Shown in pieces: positions 1,658-20,276 of a stretch of DNA of 20,276 nt. The position numbers and the translations under genes are program-made. The stretch comes from a virus. Position 1 is the stretch's first letter. The number at the start of each line of letters is the position of its first letter. Below the pieces are notes generated by a model, which saw only the letters and a list, made by a program, of their open reading frames with translations, did no database searches and was not told the DNA's origin. Where the stretch lies: positions 1-20,276 of IMG/VR virus record IMGVR_UViG_3300029258_000666, one strand, 5' to 3'.

Positions 1658-2136
1658 GCCTATACAATTTAGTATGCGGAAGATGTTCAGCAGCACTAAG
1701 AATAATGGAACTTATGGGGATAGACGTTGAGACTTTTCCCAGGTTTAGAGACTGCTACCTAAGTAAAGACTTAGATAAAGCGTTCATATATGCAAGAACA
1801 GGTGGAATGAATCGAGAAGAATATTTAGAAGATATTCAGCTAGTTAGAGATCACCATCTATTTGTAAAAGACTATGATGATGAATTTGACAACACCTTTA
1901 TGTACTTTGAGTTTAAATTTCCTACAGAAATGAAAGATCAAATTCAAGATGACATTGAAAAAATAAAGAAAGAAGCAATAAAAGATGCTAAAGAAGAAAT
2001 AAAGTATATTGAAGAGAATATTAAAGAAATAAAAAAAGATATTCTTGAAGACCTAAAAAAAACACCACGTGAAAAATGGGATTACGTAAATAAAAAAATA
2101 GGGAAAGCAAAAGAAAATATAATGGAGCGAGCATAA
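1654..2136 (+). CDS. Conserved phage protein of unknown function with coiled-coil tail
   Basis: A 160-residue protein in two parts. The N-terminal part (about residues 1-88) matches from memory a family of conserved phage and metagenome hypotheticals. Its marks are an MSLYN start, a GRFRDC-like element (here PRFRDCYL), an ARTGGMNREEY segment, and DYDDEFDNTF followed by F-FP. I know no function for that family. The C-terminal part (about 90-160) is almost pure Lys, Glu, Ile and Asp, and should form a long charged coiled coil. This tail is probably a lineage-specific extension. AAGGAG at 1641-1646 serves the ATG, which overlaps the previous stop as ATGA, and the end overlaps the RecT start as TAATG. 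The gene is thus coupled on both sides within the recombination cassette. Confidence 0.7.
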   Translation: MSLYNLVCGRCSAALRIMELMGIDVETFPRFRDCYLSKDLDKAFIYARTGGMNREEYLEDIQLVRDHHLFVKDYDDEFDNTFMYFEFKFPTEMKDQIQDDIEKIKKEAIKDAKEEIKYIEENIKEIKKDILEDLKKTPREKWDYVNKKIGKAKENIMERA

Positions 2137-2915
2137 TGAGCGAAGAAACTAAAAACGAAATAGTATCAGCAGGAAAAAATCTTGCCCTAAGTAAACCTTT
2201 ACCAATGGGTGAAGAAGCTGAAAATATAATTAAGTGGTCATCACTTATGAGTGAAACGAAGTTCTATCAGTCAATGGTTGCAGCAGGAGGGAAAAACGCA
2301 ATATTGGCTATCTTTTTAACAGCTAGAAGCTTAGATATTGATCCTATGCTTGCAATTAATGGCGGTATCTCATGTATCCAGGGACGCACGATGTTATCGA
2401 GTTCTCTAATGAATATGTTAATTAGACGGCAAGGTCATAGCATTCAAAAGAAAATCGGTAATTCGGAAATAGTGCATTTGATTGGAAAACGCAGAGATAA
2501 TGGCGATACAATGGAAAGTATTTTCACAATGAAAATGGCTGAAAATGCAGGTCTTACAAAGAACGCTGTTTATGCAAAATTCCCAGAGCGTATGTTATTT
2601 AATAGAGCTTTATCCAACTTGGCAAAAGACCTTTTCCCAGATTGTATTGGAAACAGTCTTTGTGAAGGCGAAATTATCGACATAACCCCAGAAGTAAAAG
2701 AAGAAAAAGTAGCTCTATCCAGAGAAGAGATTGAGTTTATAGAAACTTATAATCTCAACGATTTAGATAGCGAAGCAAGCAAGCTCATAGAAGGAATTTC
2801 TAAGAATATGGATAAAAGTAGGCTAGAAGTTATCTCCATTTGTGCTAAAGACCCTAAAAGATTCAAAGATGGACTTGATAAAATTAAGAATAAAAACGAT
2901 AATCCGAAAACGTAA
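2136..2915 (+). CDS. recT: RecT-type single-strand annealing protein
   Basis: Putative RecT-family recombinase that would anneal complementary single-stranded DNA made by the partner exonuclease, for phage recombination and possibly replication of concatemers. The evidence lies in two regions. Residues 53-103 carry the 'aI..a...aLdi.P..A......i..GR..lS' pattern, including GRTMLSSSLM. Residues 132-172 have AENAGL, then KFPERMLFNRALSNLAKDLFPD, the typical 'W.kyP..ML..RA.s..aR..fPD' block of RecT-like proteins with Trp replaced by Tyr. The length of 259 residues is normal. The C-terminus (about 190-259) is charged and less conserved. The start ATG overlaps the preceding stop (TAATG) and has GGAG at 2124-2127. 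It is the last gene before the terminator at 2947. Family call good; exact subfamily uncertain. Confidence 0.82.
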   Translation: MSEETKNEIVSAGKNLALSKPLPMGEEAENIIKWSSLMSETKFYQSMVAAGGKNAILAIFLTARSLDIDPMLAINGGISCIQGRTMLSSSLMNMLIRRQGHSIQKKIGNSEIVHLIGKRRDNGDTMESIFTMKMAENAGLTKNAVYAKFPERMLFNRALSNLAKDLFPDCIGNSLCEGEIIDITPEVKEEKVALSREEIEFIETYNLNDLDSEASKLIEGISKNMDKSRLEVISICAKDPKRFKDGLDKIKNKNDNPKT

Positions 2916-2946
2916 GTTCAACTAACTCTCCCACTATGGTTGATTC

Positions 2947-2972
2947 GCCTCCTTCTTGGAGGCTTTTTTTTT
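2947..2972 (+). terminator. Intrinsic terminator after recT
   Basis: A perfect 6-bp stem, GCCTCC (2947-2952) and GGAGGC (2958-2963), encloses a 5-base loop and is followed directly by nine T residues (2964-2972). It lies 31 bases after the recT stop and would end transcription of the recombination cassette. Confidence 0.92.
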
Positions 2973-3028
2973 GGTGATTTAATTTTTAAAACAGAGTAAA
3001 AATAAATTTAAACATTCTCTTTGGTTAT

Positions 3029-3086
3029 ACCTCCGGAGCTTATCTTTGCGAATCCCCGTAAAGAAATTAAGCACAAGGAGGTTTTT
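3029..3086 (+). promoter_or_regulatory. Long imperfect hairpin with T-run; possible attenuator or small RNA
   Basis: The outer helix pairs ACCTCC (3029-3034) with GGAGGT (3077-3082). The middle helix pairs GCTTA (3038-3042) with TAAGC (3068-3072). The inner helix pairs TCTTTGCG (3043-3050) with CGTAAAGA (3057-3064), with one G-U pair and a 6-base loop. A 3x4 internal loop and a 3-base bulge separate the helices, giving 19 pairs in all. The 3' arm runs directly into TTTTT (3082-3086). It could be a second terminator, a 5' attenuator for the genes at 3159-3835, or the 3' end of a short RNA. It contains AAGGAGG (3075-3081) but no convincing start codon follows. Seen in sequence; function not established. 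Confidence 0.5.
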
Positions 3087-3087
3087 C

Positions 3088-3116
3088 TTGCCTGTAAATC
3101 TTCAGCCTGTTATAAC
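3088..3116 (+). promoter_or_regulatory. Sigma70-like promoter
   Basis: A -35-like TTGCCT (3088-3093) and a -10-like TATAAC (3111-3116) are separated by exactly 17 bases. They match the TTGACA and TATAAT consensus at 4 and 5 of 6 positions. Transcription would start near 3123, about 36 bases before the ATG at 3159. Three CCTGT copies (3091, 3106, 3119) lie across it and could be operator half-sites. Confidence 0.55.
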
Positions 3117-3158
3117 ATCCTGTATAAAAACAAAAACGTAACTACGGGAGAATTAGTT

Positions 3159-3467
3159 ATGAAACAAAATAAAATACAAGCTAGATTATCATATATACAC
3201 GTACCACCAAGATGTAGAAAAGCAAGAAGGGATTCTATATGGACTTATGGAGATACTAAGGAAGAAGCTAGAAAGCTAGTTGCTGGAAAAGTAAAAAAAA
3301 TTATAAGCACAAGCAAACAATACCAGTTTGACAAAAAAGTTACCTACCAACCTGCTACAATAGACGGTACTGTAACTTCTTTTAATATGTTTGCAATAGA
3401 AGGCGTGGATGGATGCACTAGCGAATCATTCGAAGAAGCAATGAACCTTTCAAGAGAGGTTTCATAA
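3159..3467 (+). CDS. Hypothetical basic protein, 102 aa
   Basis: An unrecognised protein and the first gene of a two-gene unit bounded by terminators at 2947-2972 and 3873-3902. I chose ATG at 3159 because GGGAG (3146-3150) stands eight bases before it and the proposed promoter (3088-3116) lies just upstream. The reading frame is open back to a TTG at 3021, but that would run through the hairpin and promoter. The N-terminal half is rich in Lys and Arg (for example PPRCRKARRDS) and could touch nucleic acid; the C-terminal half is more neutral and acidic. There is no signal peptide or membrane segment. The end overlaps the next start as TAATG, so the pair is co-translated. Its placement between recombination and packaging genes hints at a regulatory or host-takeover role, which is speculation. 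Confidence 0.65.
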   Translation: MKQNKIQARLSYIHVPPRCRKARRDSIWTYGDTKEEARKLVAGKVKKIISTSKQYQFDKKVTYQPATIDGTVTSFNMFAIEGVDGCTSESFEEAMNLSREVS

Positions 3468-3835
3468 TGAAAATATCAAAAGTAGTTCCATTTTCAGATG
3501 GCCTATACATAGAAGAAGTTAAAAAAGATAAGTTCAAGGTAATGTACCACGGACACAACTTCACCGTTAGCTTATCAAATAGCAAGCTAAGCTTTAACAC
3601 ACTAAGAAACATAGGGATGAAAAGAAAGTGCCAAAGAATCGCTACAGAATACAAGAAAATCGATGCTCAAGCTCTGAAAAAATCTCACGGGGTTAGAGAT
3701 GAAAAATATCTTAACGATAAAGAAAAAAAACAAGCTCAAACTGTTATGATATTAGCTATGGCAATCATAAATAAAAACTGCAAGAGCTTAGCAAAAACTC
3801 TTGTAGAAGAATATTTTAGTGACTTAAAATTATAA
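3467..3835 (+). CDS. Hypothetical lysine-rich protein, 122 aa
   Basis: An unrecognised protein, the second gene of the small unit at 3159-3835, coupled to its partner by a TAATG overlap. The N-terminal half (about residues 1-45) looks like beta strands (VVPFSDGLYIEEV, FKVMYHGHNFTVSL). The middle is very rich in Lys, and residues 90-122 are predicted helical and moderately hydrophobic (VMILAMAIINKN) but interrupted by charge, so not a clear membrane segment. The fold could be a small DNA- or protein-binding protein, but I see no diagnostic motif. A terminator begins 37 bases after the stop, so this is the last gene of its unit. Function unknown. Confidence 0.65.
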   Translation: MKISKVVPFSDGLYIEEVKKDKFKVMYHGHNFTVSLSNSKLSFNTLRNIGMKRKCQRIATEYKKIDAQALKKSHGVRDEKYLNDKEKKQAQTVMILAMAIINKNCKSLAKTLVEEYFSDLKL

Positions 3836-3872
3836 AAAAGTCTTTAATAAAGTAACTCCTCATATTGTATTT

Positions 3873-3902
3873 GGCGGTCACCACGAAGGCCGTCTTTTTT
3901 TT
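3873..3902 (+). terminator. Intrinsic terminator before the packaging operon
   Basis: GGCGGTC (3873-3879) pairs with GGCCGTC (3888-3894) over seven pairs, two of them G-U, around an 8-base loop. Eight T residues follow (3895-3902). It closes the two-gene unit 3159-3835 and separates it from the terminase genes. Confidence 0.8.
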
Positions 3903-3930
3903 GTTCTAAAAAAATCATTCGTCCTATAGA
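3901..3930 (+). promoter_or_regulatory. Possible promoter of the packaging and virion operon
   Basis: TTGTTC (3901-3906) and TATAGA (3925-3930) are spaced by 18 bases and lie between the terminator and the small terminase gene. Matches to sigma70 consensus are modest (4 of 6 each), and a phage-specific late promoter would not be recognised by this comparison. A promoter is expected here because a terminator lies just upstream. Confidence 0.3.
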
Positions 3931-3961
3931 TTAAACTTGAATCTTAACAAGATTGTAATCT
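3928..3961 (+). repeat. Alternating inverted half-sites before terS
   Basis: AGATT (3928), AATCT (3940), AGATT (3950) and AATCT (3957) alternate in orientation. The central pair extends to AATCTT-AAC-AAGATT (3940-3954), a perfect 6-bp inverted repeat. The array overlaps the proposed -10 region and ends 16 bases before the terS ATG. It could bind a repressor or the small terminase itself. The AT-rich context makes chance occurrence possible. Confidence 0.35.
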
Positions 3962-3977
3962 AAGGAAGCTAGTTAAT

Positions 3978-4430
3978 ATGCCATGTGGCTACCCTAAAGA
4001 ATTAACTTTAAATAAAAAATCAGTCACAACAGCTTTAAAAAAGAATAAAGGCGTTTACCTACACGCTTGCAAGCTCTTAAATGTAGATAGAAGCACATTA
4101 TCAAGGTTCGTTAATGAACATCCAGATCTTAAAAAACTCGTAATAGAGCTACGTACACAGTTTGAAGAAGATCTTCTTGACGCTTGCGAAGATGTCCTTT
4201 CAAAATTAATCAAAAAGATAGATACAGACCCAACAAATGCCCTTAAATCGGCTATCTATACCCTAAATAACAAGGGTAAAAGAAGAGGCTACGCTCACCC
4301 AGACGCAGATAGAGACCACGATAAAATGACTCCTGCACAAGCTAAGGCAGTAGCCAAGTTCATCGAGGAAGAAAGAAAGAAACAGGATAAGAAGTTGAAA
4401 GGGGCTACGCTTGCAGAAGATAAAGCTTGA
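3978..4430 (+). CDS. terS: Terminase small subunit (putative)
   Basis: Putative DNA-recognition subunit of the packaging motor. It would bind the pac or cos region of phage DNA and hand it to the large terminase. The 150-residue product has an N-terminal helix-turn-helix-like region (about residues 14-45: KKNKGVYLHACKLLNVDRST, then LSRFV), followed by helical segments where TerS proteins oligomerise (LVIELRTQFEEDLLDACEDVLSKLI). The C-terminus is charged and basic. The small terminase of P22-type phages sits immediately upstream of terL, as here, and the two genes overlap by 20 bases. The ATG has AAGGAAG upstream at somewhat long spacing. The call rests on the helix-turn-helix plus position; TerS sequences are poorly conserved. 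Confidence 0.75.
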   Translation: MPCGYPKELTLNKKSVTTALKKNKGVYLHACKLLNVDRSTLSRFVNEHPDLKKLVIELRTQFEEDLLDACEDVLSKLIKKIDTDPTNALKSAIYTLNNKGKRRGYAHPDADRDHDKMTPAQAKAVAKFIEEERKKQDKKLKGATLAEDKA

Positions 4431-5997: not shown

Positions 5998-8145
5998 ATG
6001 TATACTGAAAGTGATTTAAAGTCTGAATATTTAGAAAATGGAAGGTTTGCCAAGGAATTTTGGTCTTCTTTTAAACGAGACGCTCAAGTTTATACACTAG
6101 CAGCAGCCGGATACACTTGGAGCGAAGCAGAGCGTAAGGCTTTAGCTGTGGATGGACGTGAACCAATAGAATTTAATATAATGCGGCGACCCCTTGAGTT
6201 TTTTTCTGGATACTTAAGAGACAATGTTAATCAGGTTGTCTACTCACCAGTGGAGGGGAGCGACCAAAAGACAGCCGATCAGTTTACAAAGCTTTCTTAC
6301 TATGTATGGGATAAGGGAAAGGGGTATCCTCGATTTCTTTCAGCGTGTGACGAGTCTATTAAAAGCGGTATGTCGCTTTGCGGAATTCAGATGGACTACT
6401 CTAAAGACTTCGTTAATGGTGATGTAGCTTTCTTCAAAAGAACATATAACAGCTTTCTACTCGATCCAACCTTTGAGGAAACTGATTTATCAGACTGTGG
6501 TTTTGGTATCACTACCGACTTTATGAATAAGGATATACTTCCTTCTTTACTACCCTACATATCAAAAAAAGACTTGGAAGAGTTAGCATTTTCCTACAAA
6601 GACGAACTCTTTCCAGAATATCACCCACAGATAAGTAGCTTTAACAGAAATCGAACACAAGTTGTATACAATCAATACTATCGTAGAACAACGAGGAAAA
6701 GGAAGTTTTTAGTAGATATAGACAGTGGGTTTTACTCCGATATTACGGATAAGGAAAGCAAAGAGATTAGGACGCTAAAAAATGGAATTGCTCGCTTCAA
6801 TGACATAAGAAAAAACCCTGACTTATATAACTTTGATTTAGAGGATATCCCAAACGTTGAGATAAGAGACGTAGAAAGACCTTATGTAGAACTTACCGTA
6901 TTCTTAAACGGAATTCCAGTTTACACAGGTGACGATAAAACTGGCGTTACAGAAATGTATCCTTTTGCTCCGCTAATCTGCTACATAGAGCCGTCAATCT
7001 GGATGTCCACCAAGAGAATACAAGGGCTTGCCTCATGCAATTACTCGCTTCAGCGGCAGTTTAACAAGCGTCACATGAAGATTCAGGACATGATGGATTC
7101 TGATATCTCTACAGGATATGCTTACTTAATAGGTGCTGTCAAAGACCCTAACGACTTACTTCAAACAGGACAAAATAAACTAGTTGGTATAGACCCTGAT
7201 AATGCACCGGAAGGCTTAAATTCGATTAGAGAACTGAAAGGCGGTGGTGCTAACCCGGCCTTAATAGAATACCAGAATGTTCTAGATCAACTTTCTCTTA
7301 CGCTTTCCAATGTGAATGAATCTGTGCTTGGAACTGACGACAAGGGGAATACTCAAGTATCTGGCCGACTAGCTCAAGTCCGTATAGCTCAGGGGCTTAA
7401 GGGTAACAGAAAGATCTTCGACAACATCGAGGAATCACAGCAAGTTATAGGATCTATAGTGCTAAAAGCAATTCAAGAAAACTACCCTAAAGCAAAAGTC
7501 AAACGGATTCTAGGCGAACCACCAACGGCACAATTCGATAACAGAACTTTCGAAGTCTATGATGCCGTAATAAAAGAAGGTGTCCGTTCTAAATCACAAA
7601 AAGATGCGTACTATTATGAGCTTGTTGATCTTAAACGTAGCGAAGTTGTTAACGTCCCAGAAAGTGCTATCATTGATGCTCTTGATATGTCTGGGGCTAG
7701 TGACCTTAAAGAACATATTGAAAGACAGGAACAGCAGCAGCAAGAACAGCAACAGAAGATAGACGAACAAGAGAGAGTTGCTTTAGAGCTTGCTAACAGT
7801 CAGGCTGAGGCTAATCTTGCTATGAGTGCAGAAAGAAGAGCTAGAGTTGTAAGTGACTTAGCTTTAAGCACGGAAAGGATCTCAGAGTCAGAAGAAAATA
7901 GGGCTCAAGCAGCTTTAGCAAAAGCTAAAACAATTACTGAGATTGAAGCAATGAATGAAGACCGGATAATGAAAGTACTTCAGTTTGTTGAAATGCTAGA
8001 ATCACAAGAGGTAGGAGATAGAGAAGCTATTGGACAAAAAGTTATGTCTCAAGCTAAAGACATAGAGACCTCGAAGCTTTCAACGCCTTCTCAATCTCCA
8101 AAACAGCAGACTTCCGGCGTCGGTTCTTTGGGAGGTGTTTTGTGA
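5998..8145 (+). CDS. P22-type portal protein
   Basis: The ring at the unique head vertex through which DNA enters and leaves; it docks the terminase and later the connector proteins. The 715 residues are close to the 725 of P22 gp1. The N-terminal core has the portal pattern of an EFN..RRPLEFFSGYLRDN region (about residues 58-78) and a later NYSLQRQFNKRHMK segment typical of P22-like portals. From about residue 570 the chain becomes helical: a Gln/Glu-rich stretch (577-590) and then a long Ala/Glu-rich helix region to about 690, resembling the C-terminal barrel of P22 portal. A flexible Ser/Gly tail ends it. The ATG has AAAGG upstream. The last 92 bases overlap an antisense HNH gene. Family call strong. 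Confidence 0.9.
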   Translation: MYTESDLKSEYLENGRFAKEFWSSFKRDAQVYTLAAAGYTWSEAERKALAVDGREPIEFNIMRRPLEFFSGYLRDNVNQVVYSPVEGSDQKTADQFTKLSYYVWDKGKGYPRFLSACDESIKSGMSLCGIQMDYSKDFVNGDVAFFKRTYNSFLLDPTFEETDLSDCGFGITTDFMNKDILPSLLPYISKKDLEELAFSYKDELFPEYHPQISSFNRNRTQVVYNQYYRRTTRKRKFLVDIDSGFYSDITDKESKEIRTLKNGIARFNDIRKNPDLYNFDLEDIPNVEIRDVERPYVELTVFLNGIPVYTGDDKTGVTEMYPFAPLICYIEPSIWMSTKRIQGLASCNYSLQRQFNKRHMKIQDMMDSDISTGYAYLIGAVKDPNDLLQTGQNKLVGIDPDNAPEGLNSIRELKGGGANPALIEYQNVLDQLSLTLSNVNESVLGTDDKGNTQVSGRLAQVRIAQGLKGNRKIFDNIEESQQVIGSIVLKAIQENYPKAKVKRILGEPPTAQFDNRTFEVYDAVIKEGVRSKSQKDAYYYELVDLKRSEVVNVPESAIIDALDMSGASDLKEHIERQEQQQQEQQQKIDEQERVALELANSQAEANLAMSAERRARVVSDLALSTERISESEENRAQAALAKAKTITEIEAMNEDRIMKVLQFVEMLESQEVGDREAIGQKVMSQAKDIETSKLSTPSQSPKQQTSGVGSLGGVL

Positions 8146-8674
8146 GTTTAACAAATTCAAGGCTTTGCATAAGGTTTAAATTATGTTTTGTGGAGGATTT
8201 ATGAACTCTTATATGACACCCTCTACACAAAGCAATCAAATTTTCAATTTCGTTGATTTCTCGATTCCCATTGATGTGATGAATGTCAATAGTTTTTTTG
8301 CAATCACCACAAATAGAACACTTTTTTTCAAAGTTATTAAGGGCTTTAGTGCGATATTTGCGTTTTATTGGTCTGTTGTAAAGACAATCCTTACTGCAAT
8401 AAGAACGCTTCCTATAACTGTTATAAGTTGCAAGCTTTTTCTTGCATGTCTTACACGTATAAACGGTTTTTTTAGCTTTAACATTTGCAAAATAGCATTC
8501 AAGAGAACAAAAAAATTTCCTATCAACTGTGATTTTAAATTCTTTATTACATTGTTTGCATTTTTTGAATCTTTCAGGATTTGCATATCTTCTAGCGCAA
8601 CCGTTGGAACAAAACCTTATTTTTTGCAGTCTAGCCCAAAATTGTTCTTTACAATGTTCACATATTTTCTTCAT
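8054..8674 (-). CDS. HNH homing endonuclease with three zinc-finger modules
   Basis: A free-standing HNH endonuclease on the opposite strand to every neighbour. The 206-residue product begins with three tandem CxxC-x13-15-CxxxC modules: C5/C8/C22/C26, C39/C42/C56/C60 and C74/C77/C93/C97. These are followed by an HNH nuclease domain at 119-159 with CSIC, IDIHHINGN (H132, H133, N137), N145, and LCRGCHIRVH (C150, C153, H154, H158). The fingers probably bind DNA at the target site; HNH nucleases make the break. A basic tail (183-206) is encoded antisense to the portal 3' end, over 92 bases. The start ATG is preceded on the minus strand by AAAAGG. No convincing minus-strand promoter was found. Such genes spread by cutting related phages lacking them. 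Domain call strong; homing activity inferred. Confidence 0.85.
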   Translation of the reverse strand: MKKICEHCKEQFWARLQKIRFCSNGCARRYANPERFKKCKQCNKEFKITVDRKFFCSLECYFANVKAKKTVYTCKTCKKKLATYNSYRKRSYCSKDCLYNRPIKRKYRTKALNNFEKKCSICGDCKKTIDIHHINGNREINEIENLIALCRGCHIRVHKSSTKHNLNLMQSLEFVKLTKHLPKNRRRKSAVLEIEKALKASRSLCL

Positions 8675-11840: not shown

Positions 11841-11868
11841 GCTAGCCTTCTTTAATTAGGAGGCTAGC
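11841..11868 (+). promoter_or_regulatory. RBS-sequestering hairpin of the HNH gene
   Basis: GCTAGCCTTC (11841-11850) pairs with GGAGGCTAGC (11859-11868) over ten pairs (one G-U) around an 8-base AT-rich loop. The 3' arm contains the GGAGG ribosome site (11859-11863) and ends one base before the ATG at 11870. The structure should block translation when read through from upstream virion genes, as reported for several T4 homing endonuclease genes. Confidence 0.75.
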
Positions 11869-11869
11869 G

Positions 11870-12595
11870 ATGAAAAAGTGTAGTAAATGCAAAGTTGAAA
11901 AAGAACTAAGTGAATTTTATAAGTGCCAAGTATCAAAAGATGGTTATAGATCATTATGTAAGCAATGTAGGAATGAAACTCAAAAGAAATGGAATTCTGA
12001 GAATAAAGATAAGATAAATTCAGCAAAAAAAAGATATTATAAAAAAAATAAAGACGAAATTTTAGTTAAATCAAAGGAATTAAAGAAAGCGAAAGGAGAA
12101 AAATATCTTGCTCAGCAAAGGGAATATGCTAAAAAAAGATACCACGACAACTTAGAAAGAGAGCGACAGCGATGCCGAAATTGGAGAGAAGCAAACCCTG
12201 AAAAGTATAAGGAAAGCAATAGGAAAAGTTGTAAGAAAAGATATGAGAATAATAAAGATTTTTATAAGAAATACGGCAAGTGGTATAGGACGACTTTTAA
12301 AGAAAAAAAAGAGAAATCTGATAAAGTCTGGAGGGAAAATAATCCAGACAAGGTAAAAAAATATAGTAGAATTGCTGCTAAAAGAGCAAGAAATAAACAT
12401 CCAGAAAAAGTAAAAGCAAGATTGTTAGTAGATTATGCAATAAAGAAAGACTTCCTAATACGACCAACCGAATGCTCAAAATGCGGTAAAGAAGGTCGAA
12501 TAGAAGGCCACCACGAGGATTACAGTAAACCCCTAGAGGTAACATGGCTTTGTAAGAAATGCCATGTTGAACTTCACAAACAAACAAGAGGATAG
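11870..12595 (+). CDS. HNH homing endonuclease with zinc ribbon and helical repeats
   Basis: A free-standing HNH endonuclease in sense with the virion operon. The 241-residue product has an N-terminal zinc motif (C4/C7 and C30/C33, with SEFYK and DGYRSLC between). It then has a long, very basic helical middle (about 40-175) of degenerate units like 'WRE.NPEK.K...RK..KKRY..N', which probably grip DNA. The C-terminal nuclease domain has CSKC (C202, C205), GHHEDYSKP (H214, H215, D217) and WLCKKCHVELHK (C228, C231, H232, H236). A hairpin hides its ribosome site. The next gene starts two bases after the stop and uses a ribosome site inside the end of this gene, so insertion was neat. Homing is inferred from family behaviour. 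Confidence 0.88.
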   Translation: MKKCSKCKVEKELSEFYKCQVSKDGYRSLCKQCRNETQKKWNSENKDKINSAKKRYYKKNKDEILVKSKELKKAKGEKYLAQQREYAKKRYHDNLERERQRCRNWREANPEKYKESNRKSCKKRYENNKDFYKKYGKWYRTTFKEKKEKSDKVWRENNPDKVKKYSRIAAKRARNKHPEKVKARLLVDYAIKKDFLIRPTECSKCGKEGRIEGHHEDYSKPLEVTWLCKKCHVELHKQTRG

Positions 12596-14379: not shown

Positions 14380-16283
14380 TGGATGTTTACGAAATAACAG
14401 ATTATAAAACTGGTGAAAGCGAAAAAGGGGTAAATTACTTACAACCAAGTGATACCTTTCAAAAGCTTGAAGACGGTTTTATTTACAGACAGGTTCTACA
14501 GTCTCGCAAAGGGATAGGGTATTATTGCCCTCGCCTTGCAGGAGGCACTAGGATAACAGGCATTTTTGACTTTAGAAAGCCTGATGGAACTTTTGAACTT
14601 TTAGCAACGGATAAGAATTATTTATATAGGTACAACGAAACTACAAATGTTTTCGATCAAATTTCTTTCGCTGGCTCAATGGCCGGTTATGCTGGATTTA
14701 ACATTCTTGATAATGAGGATTATATATCCGGTGTAGGATACGCTACAAAAACAAATACAGCTCGATTTGTTTTCAGTAGCAGCGGAATCCAAACAAATGC
14801 ATCCGGTTCCGCTGTTTTTTTCTATAATGGCACTGATGTAAGAGATTTCACTAATGTAGCAGACAACGCAGACTACGCACAACCTCTTGACGGTAAACTT
14901 GTTAGAGCTAAACACATTTTTTACTTTAACGAGAGGATTAATTTTGTTGTTCCTTCAATCGTTACGGCTCGCAATCAGGGAGTTCTATATTCAGGTATCA
15001 AAGATTCGGCTGGGAATGGAGAAAAGTTTAATGTTTCCGGTTCAGGTCTTCTTCAGTTTAGTACATATGAAAGCATTAAGGGAGCTTCAATCTTGGGGCA
15101 GGACTTGCTTATCAATCTGGAGAAATCTGCAAAGGTTTTGGAAATCACCGCAGATGTATTTAATCCTTACCGAATACGAAATATTCCTTCTGTTCTTGGC
15201 AGCGATGCTTCTTTTTCTTCAGTGGCGTGGAATAATATAGTAAACTCAGTCGGTAAGACAGGGATTCTTCAAACGGATGCTAGGAGTAGCTTGCGTGTTG
15301 ATAATAAGCTACCTAACTTTGCAGCCGAGCGTATAGACCAGCAATATTTTGAATTAACCTATGGTGGATTTGATAGAGCAAATGGGCAATTCCTGTGGTC
15401 ATATAAGGAAGATAATTTAAGTTCTGATGATACACAAGATAGGGTTTTAGTCCGCAACTATGAAGAAGACTCATGGTCTGTATATAAAATGAGACTTACA
15501 TGTTTTGGGGCTACAGAAGCCGGACAAAGCCTTGCATGGAATCAAATAGAAGCTGCTAGTGGTAATCCTTCATGGGATAGATGGGATACCACGGAAGAAA
15601 GTTGGAAAACAATAGGACTTGGGAAGTACGTAAGCAAAACCTTAGCTGGTGATGACCTTGGTTTTATTTACCAATTAAATTCCGATGCTGATGATAATCT
15701 TACTTCTATTTCAGCTATAAGCCAAGCTTCTCAAGCCGTTTGCACGGTTGGAGCATCTTCTTTTCTAGAAGGAGATTCTGTAATAGTAGAAAACGTAACA
15801 GGTATGACAGAAATAAATAATTTTGATCCTAGCGACTCCGATCAGACAGACATTGTGCCTTATACTGTAGTCTCCGCAACACCTACAAGCGTTACGTTAA
15901 ACGTTGATTCTTCGCTATTTACAGCTTATACAAGTGGAGGAAAGCTTTCAAAGCTTATTGAATTTTATGGTGAAACCATTCCTTTTAATCCATATATAAA
16001 ACAAGGTAAGAAGATTTTTATCTCTCATGTAGAGTTCCTTGTTCCTACTGACATCGGATACTTTAAGGTCGATTTATATGAGAACGAAGAAAACACTCCA
16101 ATAATAAGAGACTTTTTACTTAAACCGTCTTCTACGTTAAGAAAAACCGAATGGCTATCAATGGTAGTGAATAATGAAGCTGAGTTTATGAGATTTGCCA
16201 TAAAGCATGTAAATCCTGGAAGCATTTTCAAGCAAACGAGCATGAGAATTTACGCAGAAGCTGGAGGAGATATCAATGGCTAA
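14379..16283 (+). CDS. Packaged-DNA stabilisation / tail hub protein (P22 gp10 position)
   Basis: A large beta-rich protein of 634 residues, probably part of the channel that closes the head and seats the tail. Repeated blade-like segments (for example DFRKPDGTFELLATDKNYLYRY near the start, then LEDGFIYRQVLQSRKGIG) suggest a beta-propeller, as in P22-type gp10 and other head-closing proteins. Residues ~443-525 look like an insertion of an FCCH-like module: ISAISQASQAVCTVGAS, then VTGMTEINNFD, ending LFTAYTSGG. A related module sits in the decoration protein from 11025. The C-terminus (530-634) is a beta sandwich-like domain with FEL-VPTDIGYFKVDLYEN. The ATG overlaps the fibre-like gene stop, and the end overlaps the next start by 8 bases. 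Role inferred from synteny and fold impression. Confidence 0.62.
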   Translation: MDVYEITDYKTGESEKGVNYLQPSDTFQKLEDGFIYRQVLQSRKGIGYYCPRLAGGTRITGIFDFRKPDGTFELLATDKNYLYRYNETTNVFDQISFAGSMAGYAGFNILDNEDYISGVGYATKTNTARFVFSSSGIQTNASGSAVFFYNGTDVRDFTNVADNADYAQPLDGKLVRAKHIFYFNERINFVVPSIVTARNQGVLYSGIKDSAGNGEKFNVSGSGLLQFSTYESIKGASILGQDLLINLEKSAKVLEITADVFNPYRIRNIPSVLGSDASFSSVAWNNIVNSVGKTGILQTDARSSLRVDNKLPNFAAERIDQQYFELTYGGFDRANGQFLWSYKEDNLSSDDTQDRVLVRNYEEDSWSVYKMRLTCFGATEAGQSLAWNQIEAASGNPSWDRWDTTEESWKTIGLGKYVSKTLAGDDLGFIYQLNSDADDNLTSISAISQASQAVCTVGASSFLEGDSVIVENVTGMTEINNFDPSDSDQTDIVPYTVVSATPTSVTLNVDSSLFTAYTSGGKLSKLIEFYGETIPFNPYIKQGKKIFISHVEFLVPTDIGYFKVDLYENEENTPIIRDFLLKPSSTLRKTEWLSMVVNNEAEFMRFAIKHVNPGSIFKQTSMRIYAEAGGDING

Positions 16284-17895: not shown

Positions 17896-20276
17896 CTTTA
17901 AGTCCTGAAATGCAGCAGCTATCTAGTATTATTGGTTCATTTAGTAATGAAGAATTAGATGAATTTAATAAATCAGTGGGTCAATTAGTTGGTCAAAAAC
18001 AATTACAAGAAAAGATTAATGAAAACCCTTCTTACCTAGATCTTTTTAAAGAGGGATTGCAAGAATCTACTGGTAATTTAATCACTGAGGATATTCCCGG
18101 GTTTAAGCAATTATATGAATATGCAGACATTAAACCCATGCCAACTTTAAAAGAAGAGGCTGCTAGAAGCCAAAGAGATTTAGGATTCTTAAAGAGTTTG
18201 GCAAAAGAAGCTGGTGGACTTATTGGAGATTTACCCGCAATGGCAATTGGTGGGGTCGCCGGAGGATTAGCAGGAGCAGAATTAGGAGCTGGAGCTTTAG
18301 TTACTGGTGGAGCTGGAGCTTTTGCACTTCCAACACTTTTGAAAACAAGTCATCATGAATATCAAAAGTTTTTTGAAGAAAATCCAGAAGCCGATGTTAC
18401 TTTTGGAGAATATCTTGAAGCTGCTGGAAGAGTATCAAAAGAAACAGGTAAGAGTGCTGCAATTGGCGGTGCAACGGCGATGGTAGCTCCATTTGTTGGA
18501 TATCTTTCAAAGATGCCGGGCATTAATAAAATACTGTCGTCTAAGGTTACAAGAAAAGCTACTGAAGCTATTGGCGAAGCAGCAACTATCACTACTGGAA
18601 CAGCAGCTTTTCAAGGCGAGTGGCCTGATAGCGAGCAGTTTGCAAAAAACCTTTTATTGGTAGCAGGATTTCAAGGAACGAAAAAGGCTGCTAAAACATT
18701 TGGTAATTGGGCTAGGGGAAAAGGGCTTTCTCAAGTTGAAGCTGTAGAGATTTTAGACAATCTTAATGAAGAACAAATGAAGGCTTTTAATAAAGCTGAA
18801 TCTGTAGATGATATCCAAGAATTAATTGAACCAAAACAGATTGAATATAAGCCTAAAGAAGTTGAGGTAAAGGAAAAACCTAAAGAGATAAAAAAAGAAT
18901 TAGTAGATGACAAGGATGTTATTGAAGAACCTGTTCCAGAAGAATTAAAAGAAGTTGAATTTAAAGAAGAGACAAAAAAACTAGAACCTAAAGAGAAAGT
19001 TGTTGAAAAAATTGAACCTAAAGAAATACCTGAAGGTAAAGAACCGTCACCGATAGAACCAGAAGTGTTAGAGCCGGGTGAAATGCCAAGACCTAGAAAT
19101 TTAGAAGTTGTAAAAGATCCTAAAGGCCAAGAAGTTGTAAAATTTGAAAAGGTAACTTATGAGTCACCAGTAAAAGATAAATCCTACTTTGAAGGTATTA
19201 ATAGAAGATTTAAAGACATCTCAAGTCGATGGAATAAGTTTTGGAATGTAGAAGCACCGTTCAAAGAAGTTGGTGGAAATGAAACAGGTCGCAAAGCTAA
19301 ACTTTTTTACAACACAATAGAAAAACATCAAAGAGATGCTATAGATCTTATAAAACAACTTAAGAATCAAGGATACGATAGAAGGGATAGGGGTATCCTA
19401 GCTTTGTTAGCAGAGTCTAAAGATCTTCCAGAAAAATACAAAGAAAAGTATGAGAAAGGATACAGCTTAATAAGAGATTATTTTGATAAGTCTTTTGAAG
19501 AATTAAAAGATGTTGATGCTCTTACAAAGCCATTTCCTCAGTCGCTTATTGATAGAATTGAAGCTGAAAATGAAGAGCTTTCAAAAGACATAAAAACAAC
19601 GAAAGGCAAAAAAGCAAAAGAAAATATTAAAGAGAAAATTGCCAAGAACAAAGAAGCAATGAGGAAACTTGAGAACACTAAGTTTGTTCATATACCTTAT
19701 AGTGAGTGGTTTACAAATTTACATGGAACTCAAGGACAAAGAATTATCAATTCTATAAATTCCTTAACGAATAAACAAAGGAAAAGTCTTTCTATAGCAG
19801 ATCTCCTTAATTCTAAAGCGATAGATGCAGAGAAAATAGATATCGCAGATATTATAGGTTCTTATGGTCTTAGAAAGGGAAAGGATTTAGCTATTTATGG
19901 TGTGATGAAACAAGCTGAAACTGAAGGATTAGCTTCTAAAACAAGAATAAAGAATTACGAAAAAATACCAAAATGGGCATCTAACGTAGCAAATAAATTT
20001 TACGTTCATCCAGTTGTTTATGATTATCTAGTGCCAATGTTGAAACGAGAACCTAGTGCTTTTTTAAACTTTATGGGGAAAATGAAAGGGTATCAGTTTT
20101 ATAATCCGTTATTTTTACCCGGTTATGATATGTTTCAGGCTGCTATGTTAGGAACAGTAAACCCACTTAGACCGATAAAATCAGCAAAATATTTTATTAA
20201 AGCTAATAAGGACATATATAATCGTTCTAAAGATTACCATGAAGCTATGGAAGAGGGGTTATCTTCATCACCTTTC
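17892..20276 (+). CDS. Large internal/ejection protein candidate, 3' truncated by window end
   Basis: An open frame of 795 codons from ATG 17892 (4-base ATGA overlap with the preceding gene) to the last base, without a stop. Residues 107-150 are Gly/Ala-rich and hydrophobic (GGVAGGLAGAELGAGALVTG and onward), a candidate membrane-penetrating segment; a second weaker one is at ~188-210. A low-complexity Glu/Lys/Pro linker covers ~313-402. Residues ~552-597 are a charged coiled coil. The rest is helical with no catalytic motif I recognise. It is longer than P22 gp16 (609 residues) and lies at the corresponding position, so it is a candidate DNA-transfer protein. Later domains, possibly enzymatic, may lie outside the window. 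Confidence 0.75.
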   Translation, partial: MTLSPEMQQLSSIIGSFSNEELDEFNKSVGQLVGQKQLQEKINENPSYLDLFKEGLQESTGNLITEDIPGFKQLYEYADIKPMPTLKEEAARSQRDLGFLKSLAKEAGGLIGDLPAMAIGGVAGGLAGAELGAGALVTGGAGAFALPTLLKTSHHEYQKFFEENPEADVTFGEYLEAAGRVSKETGKSAAIGGATAMVAPFVGYLSKMPGINKILSSKVTRKATEAIGEAATITTGTAAFQGEWPDSEQFAKNLLLVAGFQGTKKAAKTFGNWARGKGLSQVEAVEILDNLNEEQMKAFNKAESVDDIQELIEPKQIEYKPKEVEVKEKPKEIKKELVDDKDVIEEPVPEELKEVEFKEETKKLEPKEKVVEKIEPKEIPEGKEPSPIEPEVLEPGEMPRPRNLEVVKDPKGQEVVKFEKVTYESPVKDKSYFEGINRRFKDISSRWNKFWNVEAPFKEVGGNETGRKAKLFYNTIEKHQRDAIDLIKQLKNQGYDRRDRGILALLAESKDLPEKYKEKYEKGYSLIRDYFDKSFEELKDVDALTKPFPQSLIDRIEAENEELSKDIKTTKGKKAKENIKEKIAKNKEAMRKLENTKFVHIPYSEWFTNLHGTQGQRIINSINSLTNKQRKSLSIADLLNSKAIDAEKIDIADIIGSYGLRKGKDLAIYGVMKQAETEGLASKTRIKNYEKIPKWASNVANKFYVHPVVYDYLVPMLKREPSAFLNFMGKMKGYQFYNPLFLPGYDMFQAAMLGTVNPLRPIKSAKYFIKANKDIYNRSKDYHEAMEEGLSSSPF

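Follow-up and report, generated by a model that had tools for sequence, protein, structure and literature searches.

Our analysis revealed that the plus strand of a viral DNA carries, at 3029-3086, a real hairpin of above-chance stability that ends in a T-run (H2). With moderate confidence, we favor the view that H2 serves as a second intrinsic terminator, long and of moderate strength, which would separate the recombination operon from the promoter of two small downstream genes, s1 and s2. The whole stretch of DNA that was analysed (the window) is an IMG/VR virus record of 20,276 bases. A second record of 39,012 bases, IMGVR_UViG_3300017989_000218, contains the same DNA with no mismatch over the compared stretches and supplied the rest of the genome; a window position equals the record position minus 18864. 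The features on which the argument depends are as follows, in window coordinates.

32-586, YqaJ-like PD-(D/E)XK exonuclease (yqaJ), in the upstream operon
2136-2915, plus strand, RecT-like annealing protein (recT), last gene of the upstream operon (phrog_4171, E 5e-11)
2947-2972, plus strand, T1, compact intrinsic terminator after recT, GCCTCC TTCTT GGAGGC with nine T (terminator scan, d score 48-57)
2956-2983, plus strand, weak promoter candidate, TTGGAG, 16 nt, TTTAAT with TG extension; RNA start at about 2990
3029-3086, plus strand, H2, long hairpin (6+5+8 pairs, 3029-3082) with T-run (folding, shuffles, window scan)
3075-3081, plus strand, AAGGAGG, of which GGAGG (3077-3081) is paired in the 3' arm of H2
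3088-3116, plus strand, s1-s2 promoter candidate, TTGCCT (3088-3093), 17 nt, TATAAC (3111-3116) with TG extension (1 of 1000 shuffled gaps)
3088-3141, plus strand, 17-codon ORF from TTG 3088, unsupported as a gene, overlapping the promoter candidate
3159-3467, plus strand, s1, orphan ORF of 102 aa
3467-3835, plus strand, s2, orphan ORF of 122 aa
3873-3902 (stem 3873-3894), plus strand, T3, terminator after s2, GGCGGTC...GGCCGTC with eight T (scan, d score 29-38)

The preliminary description had assigned 19 pairs in helices of 6, 5 and 8 to 54 bases, and both the sequence and the fold bear this out at 3029-3082. The basal helix pairs ACCTCC (3029-3034) with GGAGGT (3077-3082), five of its six pairs being G-C. 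A 3x4 internal loop separates it from the middle helix of five pairs (GCTTA 3038-3042 with TAAGC 3068-3072), which is joined through a 3-nt bulge to the upper helix of eight pairs (TCTTTGCG 3043-3050 with CGTAAAGA 3057-3064) and an apical loop of AATCCC. Some details of the earlier account need to be refined. Of the three helices described as stacked, the two upper ones stack across the bulge, whereas the internal loop keeps the basal one apart. The T-run of five after the 3' arm is present, but its first T (3082) is the last paired base; the basal helix closes there and abuts the run, and TTTT (3083-3086), a C and the TTG at 3088 follow. Pairing does hide GGAGG in the 3' arm, while the AA of the AAGGAGG said to be masked sits in the internal loop.

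The comparison with dinucleotide-shuffled sequence suggested in that description showed that the natural sequence folds better. The segment 3029-3086 reached -23.0 against a shuffle mean of -9.7 (sd 2.6), and none of 5000 shuffles was as stable. For 3020-3095, RNAfold gave a minimum free energy of -25.3 kcal/mol (z -3.85), an energy reached by 0 of 200 shuffles and, in a larger set, by 11 of 5000. When the whole 243-nt gap was shuffled, none of 300 versions contained a 60-nt window as stable as H2. Among non-redundant 60-nt windows, with 8088 folded over both strands of the window, H2 had the second lowest energy. When closed hairpins with T-rich tails on the plus strand of the 39-kb record were sorted by energy, it came second in stability among the matches listed.

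H2 lies where the recombination operon gives way to a small unit made up of two orphan genes. The complete terminator reported 57 bases upstream of it was confirmed as T1, with its stem at 2947-2963 and nine T ending at 2972. On the other side, s1 and s2 sit between the recombination operon and the genes for the terminase large subunit, portal and major head protein, which occupy the DNA from 4411 on. Neither s1 nor s2 gave a Pfam match at the curated cut-off, a PADLOC match or a relative among named phages, and s1 had at best one weak PHROG match of unassigned function (E 0.004). As judged from the sequence, the unit has promoter-like (3088-3116) and terminator-like (T3, 3873-3902) sequences of its own. 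Because an own promoter, an own terminator and orphan genes occur together, s1-s2 may be a moron-like unit or insertion; its GC content, 33.1% vs 38.0 +/- 4.0% in similar-sized windows, does not decide this idea. A search of the window for tRNA and tmRNA genes returned none. The window also has a second gene resembling an HNH endonuclease (8054-8674; phrog_1271, E 8.8e-21), which lies on the minus strand and overlaps the end of the portal gene.

The promoter-like sequence described right after H2 was likewise confirmed. One base separates the end of the T-run from the -35 of the candidate at 3088-3116, whose extended -10 is TGTTATAAC. An extended -10 preceded by a suitably spaced TTG arose in 1 of 1000 shuffled gaps, the promoter patterns for these counts having been picked after inspection of the sequence. 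A simple promoter scan skipped this site, since it accepted only -10 elements ending in T. Two further copies of the core TGYTATAACA lie at record position 18856, just ahead of the yqaJ operon, and at minus-strand position 15553, where a leftward gene follows. Both strands of the 39-kb record gave five counts of this core against a shuffle mean of 0.3, and none of 100 shuffles reached this number; since two of the sites are perfect palindromes and were each counted on both strands, the five counts correspond to three sites. On these grounds 3088-3116 is likely the s1-s2 promoter, and taking TTG 3088 as its -35 is preferable to taking it as a start codon. The s1-s2 transcript would not contain H2, because the likely promoter lies downstream of the hairpin; the earlier proposal of an attenuator is not supported, and attenuation of s1-s2 was rejected, for this reason.

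A perfect 10-base palindrome, TGTTATAACA, lies at the -10 of two promoter candidates (G001 15544-15553 and 21972-21981, the latter at window 3108-3117), and a near copy, TGCTATAACA, is found at a third candidate at record 18856 (39-kb record G001; L058/L059). The palindromic -10 is a core that these promoter candidates share, and possibly an operator too.

The fold and the T-run of H2, T1 before it and the promoter-like sequence after it can be read from the DNA, and from this anatomy we infer termination and promoter insulation as its use. A polymerase that gets past T1 would copy H2, whose upper stem of 13 pairs would fold first; the GC-rich ACCUCC/GGAGGU helix would then close against UUUUUCUU and the RNA would be released. 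The outcome would be that read-through is kept off the s1-s2 promoter, which begins two bases on. This view is supported by the GC-rich basal helix directly against the T-run and by the position of H2 at a unit boundary, with T1 before it and a -35 and extended -10 from 3088 after it. The yqaJ promoter (18856) is likewise preceded closely by a hairpin with eight T (record 18783-18806), and thus the order of terminator then promoter recurs in this phage. Hairpins with a terminator score of at least 5 arose in 4 of 200 shuffled gaps, none of them at an energy of -21 or lower; the script for these gap shuffles handled even lengths only, so T1 (17 nt) was not listed by it.

Several traits count against such a role. 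The d score of H2, computed in the d'Aubenton-Carafa form, is marginal at -5.7 to 15.5 depending on convention, vs 48-57 for T1 and 29-38 for T3. The T-run comprises five T and is then broken by a C (tail TTTTTCTTG), and a 3x4 internal loop after six pairs is untypical of terminators; a simple terminator scan (loop 3-8) omits H2. A compact stem with a short loop is the usual trait of terminators, not a strict requirement. T1 alone should be sufficient, and the other plus-strand copies of the AAGGAGG found in the 3' arm of H2 serve this phage as ribosome-binding sites. Most likely, H2 is a terminator of ordinary kind, though a long one, that stands at the edge of a unit, and not a new type of regulator; as a terminator, it would be part of the ordinary transcription map of the genome.

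The AAGGAGG leads to a different explanation, which we consider unlikely: H2 would mask a ribosome-binding site serving TTG 3088, the start of a 17-codon leader peptide or of a lost gene, and translation from read-through RNA of the recT operon would be blocked, as happens with gene e and I-TevI of T4. The earlier statement that this sequence has no clear start codon is wrong to the letter, as TTG 3088 lies 6 nt after GGAGG, although it opens only 17 codons. AAGGAGG is normally a ribosome-binding site in this phage, because for the other five of the six plus-strand copies in the 39-kb record an ORF (62-1309 codons) begins with ATG 4-7 nt further on, the near-identical AAGGAGGTTTTAAGATG before 11025 being one of these five; the sixth, in H2, has its TTG at 6 nt. 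The single minus-strand copy in that record is the other arm of T1. Hairpins with a Shine-Dalgarno sequence in the 3' arm were found in other viruses as well. ACCTCC-N32..56-AAGGAGGTTTTT, used as a search pattern, matched 37 viral loci, including the copy of this phage, a set selected for the motif itself and containing near-duplicates; the outer stem forms in 36 of the 37, and 15 of the 36 other loci open an ORF of at least 40 codons 3-13 nt past GGAGG. Ten of these 15 ORFs were scanned, yielding two IS200-like transposases, one holin, one P22_AR_N domain and six without a match. However, an ORF of 17 codons, as found behind H2, does not exceed the length expected by chance, and TTG 3088 falls on the -35 of a promoter that is better supported. 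In addition, ATG 3159 of s1 is preceded by a GGGAG of its own, T1 should end most transcripts ahead of H2, and the 36 comparison loci were picked for containing the motif. Since only 17 codons follow, this reading is the minority one. A remnant of an IS200-like element was a further candidate and was rejected, as no transposase-like ORF follows H2.

H2 might also be the 3' end and own terminator of a phage small RNA of about 97 nt (2990-3086), either trans-acting or a decoy that acts through its unpaired, A/U-rich 5' part, an idea that we put forward only tentatively. An extended -10, TGATTTAAT (2975-2983), with TTGGAG 16 nt before it could provide the start, although the -35 matches at 3 of 6 bases and a TG.TWTAAY -10, with T or C allowed at the last base, arose in 41 of 1000 shuffled gaps. 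In the predicted fold the 5' part is mostly unstructured and the RNA ends in a stable hairpin, T1 leaves H2 no gene of its own to end, and another orphan hairpin with a T-rich tail (record 18617-18658) has no rightward ORF directly before it. Against this, the RNA has neither a credible Rfam match nor relatives among the sequences searched: the window gave 0 Rfam matches at the gathering score, and the best match by E-value in 2900-3200 (0.24, SraG, minus strand, 20.1 bits vs a gathering score of 50) was judged a chance one. If true, a small RNA starting in the gap would be an unstudied one in this phage group. Such a small RNA, encoded between the recombination operon and the structural one, or an H2 that is terminator and ribosome-binding-site lock in one, is a doubtful proposal. 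We regard it as highly improbable that the arms of H2 act as DNA, either as an operator made of inverted repeats or as a cruciform, ahead of the s1 promoter. The position just upstream of the -35 and the folding of the minus strand (-19.1) would fit this, but three nested helices, unequal loops and a one-sided T-run suit RNA better. Moreover, the short palindrome at the -10 (3103-3122) is a likelier operator, and CCTCC...GGAGG-TTT was seen, among the fetched loci compared, only in this phage's own sequences.

Upstream of yqaJ, the divergent gap (record 18462-18895) contains several hairpins, one of which, 38 nt long (18617-18654, -18.3), has a T-rich tail and is a possible small RNA.

In IMG/VR, the sole match to a sequence word of H2, to s1 and to s2 was in each case the identical 39-kb record, and the sequences searched held no diverged copy of H2, its only copy being in that 100% identical record. 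The region 2100-4000 gave no match to named phages; the gap between recT and s1 gave none to plasmids and only short ones, at E 0.02 or worse, to phages. We fetched 47 terminase relatives beyond the identical record and the best 80 of 135 head-protein loci, the identical record included. Fifty records, chosen mostly by length from the terminase- or head-protein-related loci and many of them fragments, were searched whole; RecT was present in four and s2 in one, with the identical record counted in both. In L010 (terminase 63%), the closest locus that extends upstream, the genes preceding the small terminase gene are unrelated. Another, L190, keeps the yqaJ-o4-recT order at 27-42% identity, and no comparable plus-strand hairpin was found after its recT. 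Among GTDB genomes, alignment of RecT gave no relative, and the major head protein gave two, in MAGs labelled Bacteroidales and Parcubacteria.

Long hairpins also precede IS200-like transposase ORFs in viral contigs (L076 10997-11541 and L088 1-241). These IS200-like leaders resemble H2 in that the 3' arm of a long hairpin ends in AAGGAGGTTTTT; in L076 and L088 a Y1_Tnp ORF directly follows. Unlike them, H2 is followed by no transposase, s1 and s2 being without a Pfam match at the curated cut-off. For IS200, antisense RNAs and Hfq are cited in a passage of PMC8450116.

Hairpins that sequester ribosome-binding sites are described, in passages of PMC3014915, for the T4 genes e, soc, 49 and I-TevI and for the HNH gene mobE of Aeh1. 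They share with H2 a Shine-Dalgarno sequence in a stable helix and a promoter nearby. According to the same passages, RNA from the late promoters of T4 gene e lacks only the 5' part of the structure and is then translated. In contrast, all of the H2 hairpin precedes its neighbouring promoter, and the start that it masks leads into only 17 codons and no recognisable gene. Elsewhere in the window, a perfect hairpin of 11 pairs at 11841-11868 (GCTAGCCTTCT TTAATT AGGAGGCTAGC; z -4.56, 0 of 200 shuffles) masks the ribosome-binding site of an endonuclease-like gene on the plus strand (11870-12595; phrog_2340, E 6.7e-36), the ATG of which comes directly after it. This hairpin resembles the masked starts of I-TevI and mobE as these are presented there (PMC3014915).

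Tandem intrinsic (Rho-independent) terminators between phage transcription units are the known kind whose working H2 would most resemble. H2 differs from them in its greater length, its internal loop and bulge, its short T-run broken by a C and its marginal score. It is like them in having a GC-rich basal stem with a T-run, a second terminator 57 bases upstream and a promoter-like sequence directly downstream.
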